64,000 bases of DNA, from contig JAHCJY010000008.1 in assembly GCA_026126065.1 (NCBI GenBank), positions 1-64,000 on the forward strand, in the 5' to 3' direction. Both the position numbers and the translations under genes were made by a program. The DNA is from Bauldia sp. (lineage in GTDB: Bacteria; Pseudomonadota; Alphaproteobacteria; Rhizobiales; Kaistiaceae). Shown piece by piece: positions 24,995 to 30,891 of this stretch (its first letter is position 1; the number at the start of each line of letters is the position of its first letter). The notes under the pieces are model-generated. The model made no database searches. It had not been told where the DNA came from and saw only the letters and a list, made by a program, of their open reading frames with translations.

Positions 24995-25015
24995 GAGCGA
25001 TCGGGGCCGATCCGA

Positions 25016-25801
25016 TCACGCTCCCTCGAGGTCGAGGACCAGGTCGCGCGACAGGAAGAGGGGACTCTCGCCGCCCGTGTGGCGCAAGGCGTAGCCACGG
25101 GGAAGTTGCCCATCGACCTGTTCGGCCAGCAGCCAGCCGTTTCCGTACGGGTCGCGCGCGATGACGGTCGCCGGCCGTCGGATGGTTGCGGCAATGCGCT
25201 CGAGCACGTCCCGTTTCGGCGCCGTCTGGTTTGCCACATAGACGAGGTCCGCCGTCGCGTAGTCGTAGTCGACCCCGTCGATGCAGGCGAGGCGGAGTCG
25301 CGACGCGCCCAGCATCCGCACCAGGCGTTCGGCGGTCTCCAGCGCGCCGGCGTTCGTATCGAGTCCCACGCAATGAAGATCGGGATAGCGGTCGACGAGC
25401 CAGAGGAGGGTTGCCGGCAGGGGACCGCAACCCACCATGACCACACGCGCAACGCGGCTGTCGTCCAGTTCGCGCGCGAGTTCCCTCTGCCACGTGCCCG
25501 AGTTTTCTCCGAAGACGCGACGGAGAAGCGCTTCCGGCGACGGGCCGGTTTCGGTCAGCGCCTCGTGGGACGCCGCCAGCTCGGTTTCGGTCAGGTAGCG
25601 CAGATGGCAGGCGCGAAAGAAGGCGGCGTGGTCGGTCAGAAGATCCTGATCAAGGGATGCGAAGCAGCCGTCCGGAAGGGCGGCGAGTGCTCTTATGAAT
25701 GCATCGTGACGCCCCACGAAAGCCGCGACGGAATCGACGTTCAGTCGTGCGCGCTGGGTCAGCAGGAAATGTTCGCCGGCGTCCGCGTCAGGACGGATCA
25801 C
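25016..25801 (-). CDS. Nicotianamine-synthase-like protein (SAM aminobutanoyl transferase fold)
   Basis: This 261-residue protein has a helical N-terminal part and a Rossmann domain with VMVGCGPLPATLLWL (GCGPLP at 124-129), matching the GSGPLP loop of nicotianamine synthases and staphylopine-type CntL enzymes. Also similar are LVYVANQTAPKRDVLERI and VIARDPYGNGWLLAEQVD. Known relatives transfer the 3-amino-3-carboxypropyl group of SAM to an amine; the substrate here is unknown. The gene starts with GTG inside a GTGA overlap with the ATP-grasp gene, so it is the third gene of the ovoA operon. An ordinary class I methyltransferase is the alternative. No opine dehydrogenase or exporter gene is adjacent. 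Confidence 0.65.
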   Translation of the reverse strand: MIRPDADAGEHFLLTQRARLNVDSVAAFVGRHDAFIRALAALPDGCFASLDQDLLTDHAAFFRACHLRYLTETELAASHEALTETGPSPEALLRRVFGENSGTWQRELARELDDSRVARVVMVGCGPLPATLLWLVDRYPDLHCVGLDTNAGALETAERLVRMLGASRLRLACIDGVDYDYATADLVYVANQTAPKRDVLERIAATIRRPATVIARDPYGNGWLLAEQVDGQLPRGYALRHTGGESPLFLSRDLVLDLEGA

Positions 25802-26634
25802 CGGAAGTACCCATGGATGGCGCGGGCGCGCTCGCGCCGGGCCTGGGCAACGACGGGGTCGTCCGCGAAATGCTCGCTGAGGCCGATGGTCTTGTTGACG
25901 TCGAGAATCACCGGCCTGTCATCGACGAGCACATAGTCGATCTTCCCATAGTCCAGCCCGAGTGCGAGGCGGAGCGTTCGCAACCGCGGATCTGGTTCCA
26001 GCGCATGGGTCTCCGTCTCCGGCCCGCTTTTGACCAGCGGATGCGGCGACGTCAGGAGGAAGCACGATTCGTGTTCGCCGAAGCAGTGATAGGTGCGGAC
26101 CGCGTACCGGTCGTCCACCCGCTCGGGCAGGAATTTTTCGACGAGAAGGTAGGGATCGAACCATACGAGCGCCGGAACACTCGCCATCGACGGATACACC
26201 CGATATCCCACGCCCTCCCGGGCGCCGGTGAGGAACCGAAGTCCCATCCCCCGCAGGCGGTGATAGGCCCGGACCACGTAGTTCGGGTGCAGTGTCCGTT
26301 CCGGCTTCCCGCCGTAGTTCAGGTTCGTCTTCACGATGACGGGACCGGAGTGGCTGCTCACCCGGGTGAGCGCCAGTGAACTGTAGACGCGCTTGCGAAT
26401 GTCGGTGACGCGCCCGTTGATCGTTCGAGCGTAGCGGCGGGCGAGATGGAGAAACCGATCGGGAACGACGGACAGGTCGACGTGAAGGAACAGGACATCG
26501 GCGGGCACGTACCGGCTTGTGCCGAAGAGGAAGTGTACGGTCAGGCCTTCCTCCCGCCAGTACGCGGCCAACCGGGAGACGACGTATTTGTCCGGGTTGT
26601 CGCCTGACAGGAAGAGGACAACGACGCTTTTCAC
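25798..26634 (-). CDS. ATP-grasp family ligase of unknown substrate
   Basis: A 278-residue protein with an ATP-grasp layout. A Rossmann-like N-terminal part comes first, then VIVKTNLNYGGK (ATP lysine near 102), LLVEKFLPE (adenine-contact hinge, 163-171), and GKIDYVLVDDR with VILDVNKTIG, where D233, D245 and N247 are the likely Mg ligands. Known relatives join a carboxylate to an amine or thiol via acyl phosphate. The substrate is unknown; the neighbours suggest a histidine- or thiohistidine-type acceptor. The gene starts with GTG overlapping the ovoA stop and ends overlapping the next start, so all three genes are translationally coupled. Confidence 0.7.
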   Translation of the reverse strand: MKSVVVLFLSGDNPDKYVVSRLAAYWREEGLTVHFLFGTSRYVPADVLFLHVDLSVVPDRFLHLARRYARTINGRVTDIRKRVYSSLALTRVSSHSGPVIVKTNLNYGGKPERTLHPNYVVRAYHRLRGMGLRFLTGAREGVGYRVYPSMASVPALVWFDPYLLVEKFLPERVDDRYAVRTYHCFGEHESCFLLTSPHPLVKSGPETETHALEPDPRLRTLRLALGLDYGKIDYVLVDDRPVILDVNKTIGLSEHFADDPVVAQARRERARAIHGYFR

Positions 26635-28763
26635 ATCGACCGTTCCCAGATCGTCATGTCCGCGATCGAGTGCTGGAACTTGCGGGTCGTTTCACGGATC
26701 ACGAACGGGACGTCGCGCCTGTCGACGAGGGCAAAACTCGGCGACAGGCGGTCCCGCAGCGCGTCGAACGTCGTGTAGGGCGCGCCTCGAGGCGTCTTGA
26801 ATCCGCCTAACCATTTCGCGCGAGCGGTGAACTCCTCCAGCCACGTATGGGGCGAGCTGATCACCAGCAGCCCGCCCGGGCGAATGCGTTCCGGGATGAT
26901 TTCGAGGAACCGCGCCGGGTCGTACAGCCGGTCGACGAGGTTGCCCGCAAAGACGAGGTCGTACCCGCCGTACTTGTCGGCGAGGTTGCACGCGTCGCCC
27001 TGCGCGAAGACGACCTTGTGGGCCGCATCGCGGAACGCGAAATCGTCAAGGCGGACTTCGCGATGTCGGACGAGCTCGCCTTCGTCCTGAATCGCATATT
27101 GCTGCCGGCCGGTTCGCTGCAAATTCGACGGGACCTGGATGAAGCGCGCCGAGAAGTCCACCGCGTCGACCCGATCGAACGCGCCGGCGATCTCGAAGCT
27201 GAAGCGGCCCACGGCGCAGCCAATGTCGAGCGCGCGTTCCCGCCGTCGTCCCCGCATGTGTTCGAGGCAGATGTCCGCGCAGGCCTTGGGGTAGTTGGGG
27301 ACTTCGAAATACGTGTCGCCGTAGTGGAACTCGACGTAGAGCGAGACCATGCGGTCGGTCTCGTATGGGTTCGGCTCATGAATCCGGTACGCGCCGGCCT
27401 CGACGTAGCGAAAGCCGGCGTGCTGGTGGAAATGACGACGGAAGGCGTAGCGGGAATCGCGCAGGGCATAGTTGCCGGTGGAGATCCAGCATCCGCCTTT
27501 GAAGAGGTTGTGTTTGCCGTCGAAGGTCGGGGTGGAAAAATCGTCGTAGACGGGATGAACCGCGAACCCCTCGAAGGCGTCGATGGGCGTTTCCGTCCAC
27601 TGCCACACATTGCCGATGATGTCGTAGAAGCCCCCGTCGAAGGCGAATTCGTCGACCGGGCAAGCCGACATGTAGTGTTCCAGATTGACGTTGCCGGGCG
27701 CTCGCTCCCACTCGGGCTGGTCCGTATCGACGAGTTCGCGCAGTCGATACCACTCCGCTTCGGTCGGCAGGCGAATGGATGCGCCCGTCTGCTCGCTCTT
27801 CCAGGTACAGAATGCCTTGGCCTCCAGGTAGTTCACCTCCACGGGCCAGTTCCACGGCATCTCGATGATCTCGAGCATGGTGCGCAGGCGGTACCTGCCG
27901 TCATCCCTCACCCAGTAGACCGGGTGTTCGGCGTGACGGTAGACGGCCCAGTTCCATCCTTCCTCGGTCCAGTATCGTCGCTGCGAATACCCGCCATCCT
28001 CCACGAAGGCCAGGTATTCGGTATTGGAAACGAGGTACTGGCTCGCCTTGAACGATGCGATCTCTTCGACCTGAACGCCGTATTCGTTGTCCCAGCCGTA
28101 GTACGGATTGTTCCGTGACTTGCCGAGCGTGATCCGGCCGCCGGCCACCGGCAGCAGGGTATTCTCCGGTGCAGCGCCCCGTGTGCGGCAGATCCGGCCC
28201 CAGAGGGGATGCGGCCGCACGTGCTCGAGCGGGAGTTCGCGGATGAGGACGGAAGACGTCTCGAGGTGGATACGCTCGTGCTCGATGCCCATCATCACGA
28301 TCCAGAGTGGGTCGTTCCATTCGATGGGAATCGTAACCGCGCAGGCCTTCATGACGGCATCGACGACCTCGCACACTTCGGCGCGGTAAGCCCGGACATC
28401 GGCGGGCGCCGGCCAGTCGTCACGTCCCTCGCGCAGGTCGTCCCAGGACATCTCGTCCACGCCGACCGCGAGGAGCGATTCGAGCCGAGGGTCGATCGGC
28501 GCGTCGACTATCCCGGCCGCCCTGAGCTTGTTGATGAAGAACACGGCGGTGTGGCCATAGTAGAAGATCAGCGGGTGCCGCAATGGATTGGGGCGTGCGA
28601 GGTACGCGTCATCGCCCGCAAGGCACTCGAACAGGCTTTCGTAGAGTGCCGACGTCTCGTGGAAGTAGCGGAGGATTTCCTCGCGCTTGCCGTCGGGCGT
28701 CCCGTGCCTCAGGTCGACCGTTCTGGAATGGCCAATACTGATTTCATCGATCCCCAGGCCCAT
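26631..28763 (-). CDS. ovoA: 5-histidylcysteine sulfoxide synthase fused to mercaptohistidine N-methyltransferase
   Basis: OvoA joins cysteine and histidine at imidazole C5 with O2 to make 5-histidylcysteine sulfoxide, the first step to ovothiol. The 710 residues comprise a DinB-like domain with iron motif HERIHLE (H162, H166, E168; also H71), a formylglycine-enzyme-like lectin domain (SNTEYLAFVEDGGY, NVWQWTETP, GGCWISTGNYALRDSRYAFRR split by spacers), and a C-terminal SAM methyltransferase (ALDIGCAVGRFSFEI) like the N-methylating domain of full-length OvoA. ATG at 28763 places nine residues before GHSRTVDL, as in known OvoA; ATG at 28832 would overlap the upstream gene. No ovoB (PLP lyase) lies nearby. 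It heads the three-gene operon. Confidence 0.92.
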   Translation of the reverse strand: MGLGIDEISIGHSRTVDLRHGTPDGKREEILRYFHETSALYESLFECLAGDDAYLARPNPLRHPLIFYYGHTAVFFINKLRAAGIVDAPIDPRLESLLAVGVDEMSWDDLREGRDDWPAPADVRAYRAEVCEVVDAVMKACAVTIPIEWNDPLWIVMMGIEHERIHLETSSVLIRELPLEHVRPHPLWGRICRTRGAAPENTLLPVAGGRITLGKSRNNPYYGWDNEYGVQVEEIASFKASQYLVSNTEYLAFVEDGGYSQRRYWTEEGWNWAVYRHAEHPVYWVRDDGRYRLRTMLEIIEMPWNWPVEVNYLEAKAFCTWKSEQTGASIRLPTEAEWYRLRELVDTDQPEWERAPGNVNLEHYMSACPVDEFAFDGGFYDIIGNVWQWTETPIDAFEGFAVHPVYDDFSTPTFDGKHNLFKGGCWISTGNYALRDSRYAFRRHFHQHAGFRYVEAGAYRIHEPNPYETDRMVSLYVEFHYGDTYFEVPNYPKACADICLEHMRGRRRERALDIGCAVGRFSFEIAGAFDRVDAVDFSARFIQVPSNLQRTGRQQYAIQDEGELVRHREVRLDDFAFRDAAHKVVFAQGDACNLADKYGGYDLVFAGNLVDRLYDPARFLEIIPERIRPGGLLVISSPHTWLEEFTARAKWLGGFKTPRGAPYTTFDALRDRLSPSFALVDRRDVPFVIRETTRKFQHSIADMTIWERSM

Positions 28764-28780
28764 TCGATCCAGCACATCGC

Positions 28781-30853
28781 TCAAGGCCGCAACGCTGCCG
28801 GTGATCCGATTGCCGGCGCACAGCCATCGCACACTACCTCGATCGACGCCGCGCCGAGGACGAGGCCCGACGAGCCGCCGACGTAATTGAGCACGAAGAC
28901 GCCCGGTTCGGCCGGGGCGACGAGCGTGGCCGTGGTGCCGGCAACGAGCCGGACGCTCGCCACCGCACGGCTCACGTCATCGAGGACCCGCGTCAGGCGG
29001 ATTTCGTCGAACTGGCCGCCGGGGCCCGTCCACGTCACCCTGAACGGCGTGCCGGCCTGGATCGGACCGGCAACCGACATCGTGACTGCCGACCCCGTGA
29101 CCGTGATCGCCCGCCGCGCCAGTACGGCCTGGCCTTGCGCGATATAGCGAAGCTCGTAGGCGCCCTCGGTCGCGGGGGCGTCGACAACGGCGGCGCGCCC
29201 GAACGCCGACACCCGAACTTCTGCGGCGGCTTCGGTGTCAGCCGCTCCCGCGGCGGCGATCGCGATGCGGTCGCCGGGGTGGCCCGGACCGGTCCAGTCT
29301 ATCGTGAGCGTCGCCCCGGCCATGACCTCCGCCGGCGCGTCGAGCGTTGCGACGGGGGCAACGATGTCGACCGGCACCGTCGCGACCACGGCCGACACGG
29401 CCGCGGACCAGTAGCGGAGTTCGTAGCGGCCGGCAGGGAAGGGCGCGACGAATGTGACGGTTTCGCGCTCGGGTCGCGCCACGGCGACGCTCGCCTCGGG
29501 CGGGCTGCCGGCCACGGCAAGCCGGATCTCGTCGTTCGGGCCGCCCGGCCCCGACCACTGGACGCCGAACCGCGCGCCCGCAACGATGCCGCCAACATCC
29601 GCCTGCATCGTCACCGCCGCCGGTATGACGTCGATCGTCTGCGTCTCGATGATGCGATCTTCGGGCGCACCGCGGATCGCGCCGCCCACGGCAGGCGGCT
29701 CGGGTCGGACGAGCCGGATCTCGTAGCGGCCAGGCGTCGCGGGGGCGAGGAAGGTGACCGTCGATTCGTTGCGACGAAGCGGCTCCTCGGCCAGCGGCCT
29801 GTCGATCGGCGCCAGGGGCGTCGCCAGCTGGATCGTGTCGCCGTTCTGGAGCGGCGCCGTCCAGCCGACAACGATGACGCCGCCTTGCTGCACGCGGTCC
29901 GGCGCGTCGAGGCTTGCCGCGATCTCGCGGACGCTGAGCCGGGCGCTCGCCAGCACGACCCGGCGCTCGGCGTTCCAGTAGCGGATCTCGTAGGCGCCGC
30001 GCTCGGCCGGTGCGGTCAGCGTGACCGGCGCGCCGTCGGACTTCACGAACGCCCCGACGAGCCGGGCCTCCGGGGTCGTGCCGTACCACGAGATGCGGAT
30101 CTGGTCGCCTTCGCCGAGCGGCCCCTCATACGCCACCTCGAAAGGCTGCCCCTGGATCACGGCTTCCGGAACGGTGAGCGTTGCCGTCGGCAGTGGTTCG
30201 GGCGGCGGTACCGGCACCGCCCACGCGGCTTCGAGCACCTGCGCCAGGTTCGCCCGGAAGCCGGCGGCGTCGTTCGCGCGGAGGAACACGCCGCCGGTGA
30301 TCTCGGCGAAACAGGACAGGGCGCTCGCCTCGTCGGAGGGAACGCCGAGGCCCAGGACTGAAATGACGAGGTTCGGCATCCGCTCGTGGAGCGCGGAGAT
30401 CACGGCGCAGGGGTCGGGTGCGCAATTGTCCTGATTGTCGGTGATGATGATGAGGGTCGCCGGCGCATCCGGATCGGCGAACGCTGCTGCTGCCGTGACG
30501 GCCCCTTCGGCGAGCGGCCCGCGGCCGATCGGCGAGACTTCGCCGGCTGCGGCGATTGCCTGGGCGGGCGTTCCGGGGGCACGGATCACGCGATGCGAGG
30601 ACGCCGAGCAACTGTCGGCGATCGTGCCGTAGACCGCGACGCCGACGCGGAAATCGGCCGGCGCGCCACCCAGCACTGCGCTGAACGCGTTGCGGGCAAT
30701 GTTGAGCTTCGAAGTGCCGCCGATCGCCACGCTTGATGAGCGGGAACCGTCGAACAGGACCATGACGTCGGCGGCGCGCGCCGCGGGAAGGGCGGCAAGG
30801 GCGCCCAGCATCGCCGCAAGCGTTGCGGGCAGCAGCTTTCGCAGGAACGTCAA
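28781..30853 (-). CDS. Secreted von Willebrand factor A protein with five Ig-like repeats
   Basis: A 690-residue exported protein. After a signal peptide (to about AARAAD) comes a VWA domain whose metal site reads DGSRS, with TDNQDNCAPD as a second conserved loop. About five tandem beta modules of roughly 90 residues follow, each with a W-x-GP turn and a GRYELRY-like end. The modules resemble bacterial Ig-like domains. TTG at 30853 opens the signal peptide, with AGGGAT nine bases upstream; TTG at 30886 is also in frame. It lies 17 bases upstream of ovoA on the same strand, so cotranscription is possible. It is divergent from ccrM. Binding partner unknown. Confidence 0.8.
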   Translation of the reverse strand: MTFLRKLLPATLAAMLGALAALPAARAADVMVLFDGSRSSSVAIGGTSKLNIARNAFSAVLGGAPADFRVGVAVYGTIADSCSASSHRVIRAPGTPAQAIAAAGEVSPIGRGPLAEGAVTAAAAFADPDAPATLIIITDNQDNCAPDPCAVISALHERMPNLVISVLGLGVPSDEASALSCFAEITGGVFLRANDAAGFRANLAQVLEAAWAVPVPPPEPLPTATLTVPEAVIQGQPFEVAYEGPLGEGDQIRISWYGTTPEARLVGAFVKSDGAPVTLTAPAERGAYEIRYWNAERRVVLASARLSVREIAASLDAPDRVQQGGVIVVGWTAPLQNGDTIQLATPLAPIDRPLAEEPLRRNESTVTFLAPATPGRYEIRLVRPEPPAVGGAIRGAPEDRIIETQTIDVIPAAVTMQADVGGIVAGARFGVQWSGPGGPNDEIRLAVAGSPPEASVAVARPERETVTFVAPFPAGRYELRYWSAAVSAVVATVPVDIVAPVATLDAPAEVMAGATLTIDWTGPGHPGDRIAIAAAGAADTEAAAEVRVSAFGRAAVVDAPATEGAYELRYIAQGQAVLARRAITVTGSAVTMSVAGPIQAGTPFRVTWTGPGGQFDEIRLTRVLDDVSRAVASVRLVAGTTATLVAPAEPGVFVLNYVGGSSGLVLGAASIEVVCDGCAPAIGSPAALRP

Positions 30854-30891
30854 GGCTTTGTCATCCCTTCGCAATCCGGCGCGCAACTCAC

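Follow-up and report, generated by a model that had tools for sequence, protein, structure and literature searches.

Within a 64,000-nucleotide stretch of DNA from Bauldia sp. (contig JAHCJY010000008.1 of assembly GCA_026126065.1, positions 1 to 64,000; hereafter the window), we analysed a group of three minus-strand genes at positions 25016-28763, encoding the sulfoxide synthase OvoA, a probable ATP-grasp ligase and a protein resembling nicotianamine synthase (NAS). The operon is real and credible as a unit, and most likely entered this genome as one block; its product is what we infer. We tentatively propose, with a probability of roughly 0.4, that the three genes constitute a horizontally gained tailoring unit for 5-thiohistidine or ovothiol, in which the OvoA-derived compound would be modified by aminobutyrylation (or methylation) and by ligation.

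Gene organization and the inserted block

The arrangement described in the initial annotation of this region, i.e. three minus-strand genes joined by two GTGA overlaps, was recovered in full, with all three open reading frames and both junctions located. The full-length ovoA gene (26631-28763, ATG start) encodes a 5-histidylcysteine sulfoxide synthase fused to a thiohistidine N-methyltransferase domain. Its stop codon is overlapped by 4 nt by the GTG start of the middle gene (25798-26634, 278 aa), which encodes the probable ATP-grasp ligase without a named family, and the stop codon of the latter is overlapped to the same extent by the GTG start of the NAS-like gene (25016-25801, 261 aa). Both junctions are 4-nt GTGA overlaps (ATGTGAAAAG and CCGGTGATCC). 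The ATG at 28763 is the likely start of ovoA; an alternative GTG start at 28832 would run into the upstream gene.

Comparison with another genome of the same genus (G182) delimits the unit. A block of 3.8 kb (24999..28811), holding the three genes and no others, is replaced in G182 by about 250 bp, which is all that separates the lipoprotein gene from the upstream secreted-protein gene in that genome. BLASTN comparison of the window with the G182 locus (L073) revealed colinearity on both sides of the block (86% and 83% identity), and the flanking proteins of G182 are 90-95% identical to those of the window. The equivalent locus is also devoid of the three genes in G063, G158 and G205, and the NAS-like gene was found in none of the 27 other genomes of the family that were searched. 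Moreover, the G+C content of the cassette genes is 63-67%, as against 68-72% in the adjacent genes, and their G+C content at third codon positions is below that of most adjacent genes. The empty site in G182, the absence of the NAS-like gene from the 27 family genomes and the lower G+C content of the block therefore indicate that the three genes behave as a single unit. As judged from these genome comparisons, the trio was most likely gained as one three-gene block, and apparently not long ago; repeated loss elsewhere is a possible but less economical alternative to a single gain. Arrival as one unit in turn supports a shared pathway.

The initial annotation had named accidental adjacency as an outcome fatal to its proposal. 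The possibility that three long-resident genes merely lie side by side was considered and rejected, since the whole block is absent from a locus with conserved flanks in a genome of the same genus. The ends of the insert carry no convincing flanking repeats or remains of mobile elements. In the empty site of G182 (L073:3380-3526), two arms of 15 nt, CCTCCCCCTTGCGGC, form a perfect inverted repeat around 117 nt; it resembles a small palindromic element and was not found in the window.

Predicted functions of the three proteins

The assignment of the first gene to ovoA proved firm. The protein is complete, and both TIGRFAM domains score far above their cut-offs (TIGR04344, 662 bits against 400; TIGR04345, 316 bits against 170); the iron-binding motif HX3HXE is present as HERIHLE at residue 185 (733-aa reading). 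Its identity to the solitary OvoAs of the order, with which it groups, is 61-65%; all plasmid-encoded OvoAs are less than 60% identical to it. The established activities of OvoA are the synthesis of 5-histidylcysteine sulfoxide and the methylation of 5-thiohistidine (PMC12631010). In four genomes (L095, L096, L097 and L098, family f230) an aminotransferase/alliinase-like gene is located downstream of the OvoA gene, and a conserved gene of approximately 375 aa without a Pfam match is located upstream, the latter representing another candidate OvoA-linked gene.

The third protein had been described as NAS-like, and this was confirmed at the level of sequence families. PF03059 (NAS) is the sole Pfam family above cut-off (33.8 bits; gathering cut-off 27.1), the match covering only residues 109-237, i.e. 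the C-terminal domain that binds S-adenosylmethionine (SAM). When a profile of five relatives was compared with the PDB, the staphylopine enzyme CntL (E=6e-12) and the archaeal NAS, MtNAS (2e-10), were the leading matches, the first methyltransferase appearing only at 0.012; a three-sequence profile (the window protein and two Mesorhizobium relatives) again placed CntL and then MtNAS first, with weaker scores. These matches support its identification as a SAM-dependent transferase of NAS-family resemblance. The protein shares the NAS-family SAM-binding domain with CntL and the other synthases of the pseudopaline and staphylopine pathways and with MtNAS, but it is about 260 aa long, has a divergent N-terminal region and is paired with OvoA and a ligase, without CntM, a transporter or a racemase.

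Alternatively, the third protein could be a plain SAM-dependent methyltransferase, which would N-methylate ovothiol or thiohistidine (the missing enzyme of ovothiol B/C synthesis) or some other small molecule, with subsequent conjugation by the ligase and without any aminobutyrate transfer. We consider this rather unlikely. Nalpha-methyltransferases leading to ovothiols B and C have been predicted and are not yet known (PMC12631010), Methyltransf_25 reaches 23 bits with the window protein, which is below its cut-off, and the two Mesorhizobium relatives weakly match Methyltransf_31, not NAS. A structure model built from three sequences displays, at low confidence (predicted local distance difference test, pLDDT, of 48), a generic class I methyltransferase fold, whose Rossmann part resembles many methyltransferases equally; in a Foldseek search with it MtNAS appeared amid many methyltransferases. 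CntL ranked 37th among the structural matches of the model (Z 12.7, as compared with 14.4 for the top match). The initial annotation would have given up its proposal if structure prediction and assays had revealed a plain methyltransferase with an unrelated substrate; a model of such low confidence does not separate the two. By contrast, NAS alone exceeds the Pfam cut-off, and CntL and MtNAS lead every sequence-profile search.

The middle gene probably encodes an ATP-grasp ligase of an unnamed family, as suggested by its conserved motifs. The ordered ATP/Mg motifs (Lys, hinge Glu, Asp, DxN) are present, with K102, E166, D233 and D245 invariant in nine homologues and N247 of the DxN motif substituted in two of them (L030 and L031); the segments VIVKTNLNYGG, LLVEKF and GKIDYVL...VILDVNKT are likewise invariant or nearly so. 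Local similarity to Escherichia coli RimK was detected for four of the nine family members (z 3.4-5.2 by shuffling), the others having no such similarity, and the family resembles MdnB (E=1) and Ddl weakly. Comparison of the family profile with RimK, GshB and TupA using hhalign gave no significant match, the RimK alignment covering the expected DxN segment. Homologues of the middle gene are present in the window's own genome and in its relatives, distant from ovoA and the NAS-like gene. One such paralogue (38% identical; L030:6157-7002, contig C2 of the same genome) is located at a great distance from ovoA and has genes for two response regulators and a histidine kinase as neighbours.

Proposed pathway and the distribution of its components

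If the cassette is indeed a thiohistidine-tailoring unit, OvoA would join histidine and cysteine to give 5-histidylcysteine sulfoxide, and C-S lysis would be carried out by an unlinked lyase, after which OvoA could methylate the ring to form ovothiol A. Most likely, the alpha-amine of the presumed substrate, a histidine derivative, would then receive the 3-amino-3-carboxypropyl group of SAM from the NAS-like enzyme, in a reaction parallel to that of CntL on histidine. One of the carboxylates would be turned into an amide by the predicted ligase activity of the ATP-grasp enzyme. In this or another order, these steps would yield an extended amino acid with thiol and imidazole groups, whose biological role we infer along with the steps themselves. 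Enzymes of the NAS family start from histidine or glutamate, the alpha-amine of which they couple to the aminobutyrate moiety of SAM; in the case of CntL (D-His aminobutanoyltransferase) the nucleophile is the histidine alpha-amine (PMC10248798). Since this amine is kept in the OvoA product, the action of a NAS-like enzyme on thiohistidine or ovothiol would be chemically natural. A tailoring enzyme for 5-thiohistidine encoded beside ovoA is already known, namely the N-acetyltransferase 5THNAT of Proteiniphilum and other Bacteroidota (PMC12631010). In both cases a neighbour of ovoA may modify the alpha-amine of 5-thiohistidine; however, 5THNAT is a GNAT acetyltransferase, whereas neither the NAS-like transferase nor the probable ATP-grasp protein of the window is related to it. 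As regards the original idea of an operon acting on thiohistidine, the unit itself is supported by the overlaps, the empty site, the lower G+C content and the preference for NAS over methyltransferase models, while the specific product is not.

Several observations weigh against the proposed pathway. The cassette has no OvoB-like lyase gene, and genome-wide candidates for OvoB are limited to distant aminotransferase-like proteins (22-26% identity). The complete OvoA, with its sulfoxide synthase and methyltransferase modules, is shared with the bacterial and eukaryotic systems of ovothiol biosynthesis (OvoA, OvoB), but the window locus differs from these in the absence of an adjacent lyase and in the presence of two extra enzymes whose genes overlap with ovoA; in several OvoA loci of the phylum a pyridoxal phosphate-dependent lyase/aminotransferase gene adjoins ovoA, as expected for OvoB. 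The positions equivalent to Glu81 and Tyr107 of MtNAS are essential in plant NAS (PMC10248798); the corresponding N-terminal region of the window protein is aligned differently by each method, and its Trp104 may occupy the site of the Tyr found in some relatives. With respect to the middle protein, neither it nor its eight homologues significantly matched any ATP-grasp model in Pfam, NCBIfam or PHROGs, and its single-sequence structure model (pLDDT 33) is unusable as evidence of fold. The ATP-grasp claim of the initial annotation thus stands on the ordered motifs of the nine homologues and the weak RimK similarity, and finds no backing in family models or in the weak sequence statistics.

The distribution of the genes points in the same direction. 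The NAS-like gene was sought in samples of the family (28), order (199), class (385) and phylum (299, by profile), as well as in a collection of genome contigs, the scan of which, made with two short patterns only, missed homologues found elsewhere and is a weak negative. Only distant relatives were detected in these samples (in G136, G347, G270 and two Mesorhizobium genomes), none of them beside ovoA. An ATP-grasp or NAS-like neighbour was found at none of the other OvoA loci, be it in the order (0 of 8, one of which, L062, is a contig fragment) or in the phylum (0 of 23, with only 1.5 kb covered on each side; a short weak match at L089 falls within another gene and was treated as noise), and the three-gene order occurs in no other genome among those searched. 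The recurrence by which the initial annotation proposed to check its idea was consequently not observed, 31 other OvoA loci being without either partner. In plasmids, no match was obtained for the NAS-like protein, the ATP-grasp protein or the relatives of either, and nothing was found in viral contigs. The NAS-like protein of G270, with PF03059 just under cut-off, is encoded in a lipid/polyketide-like cluster (L054:2634-13508) containing an acyl carrier protein, ketosynthase-like proteins and two acyl-activating-type enzymes, an unusual context for a NAS relative.

These distributions bear on another explanation, according to which the NAS-like and ATP-grasp enzymes form an independent module that acts on a substrate of its own (e.g. 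histidine or another amino acid), ovoA being merely co-located or supplying an unrelated thiol, after a chance assembly that was subsequently transferred. In the two Mesorhizobium loci (L063:5644-7430 and L064:5677-7448) a distant NAS-like gene, whose product is approximately 31% identical to that of the window, is directly followed by a gene for a TupA-type ATP-grasp protein (PF14305, E=3e-6); in L063 the pair adjoins genes for an FAD oxidoreductase and a glutamine-synthetase-like protein. The adjacency of NAS-like and ATP-grasp genes is common to Mesorhizobium and the window, but the ATP-grasp protein there belongs to another family and ovoA is missing. The pairing has thus been found twice, with different ligases, and OvoA has joined it only in the window. 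Its independent occurrence in Mesorhizobium also counts in favour of the tailoring pathway proposed above. NAS-like proteins and ligases may represent a recurring module, and it is possible that the Mesorhizobium pair belongs to an unrelated NAS-ligase pathway. The isolation of all other OvoAs found from such partners, and the grouping of the window OvoA with solitary ones, are also in line with an independent module. What speaks against it are the two 4-nt overlaps and the presence of one insertion boundary per side, enclosing all three genes and nothing else, and we assign this explanation a low likelihood.

Genomic setting and the metallophore question

The resident gene upstream of the cassette (28781..30886, minus strand) encodes a secreted protein of 701 aa, the initial part of which is similar to a VWA domain and for which no Pfam match was found. 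It lies outside the cassette, on the same strand, with its stop codon 17 bp before ovoA, and an 81% identical homologue occupies the same place in G182, which is devoid of the cassette. This gene may provide the cassette transcript; a promoter scan found no promoter. The surroundings are of housekeeping character, comprising genes for heme-o synthase, IspH, ThrB, ThrC, CcrM and ATP synthase (as identified by inspection of translations).

From the chemistry of nicotianamine, staphylopine and ovothiol, metal-binding groups are expected in the product. Together with the NAS family membership of the third protein, this would agree with a cassette product that acts as a secreted metallophore of opine-like or thiol type for Cu, Zn or Ni, in line with the earlier suggestion of a metal-binding compound. 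However, the insert consists of three genes only, in a housekeeping neighbourhood, whereas characterised zincophore clusters carry cntM (beside cntL), an exporter and an importer (PMC7438024). No CntM-like opine dehydrogenase, exporter, importer or metal regulator is encoded in the operon or adjacent to it, and a PF10100 search of the genome gave no match, although control genomes gave none either. The metallophore suggestion was therefore not borne out: such a role is possible but unsupported, and we regard it as very improbable. A role inside the cell, as a thiol, is no less likely.

According to a 2025 paper, 5THNAT is the only enzyme besides OvoA known to act on 5-thiohistidine (PMC12631010). 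This small pathway would gain a further branch from a cassette joining ovothiol and NAS chemistry. We further suggest, as a speculative extension, that OvoA, an enzyme of the NAS family and a member of a new ATP-grasp family, encoded together by a three-gene mobile cassette, would make a new class of natural product, a 5-thiohistidine or ovothiol that is aminobutyrylated and amide-linked. If this is true, the product would be a thiol-bearing analogue of the nicotianamine/staphylopine precursor, and the cassette would allow a direct test of ovothiol use as well as the description of an ATP-grasp family for which there is no present model.

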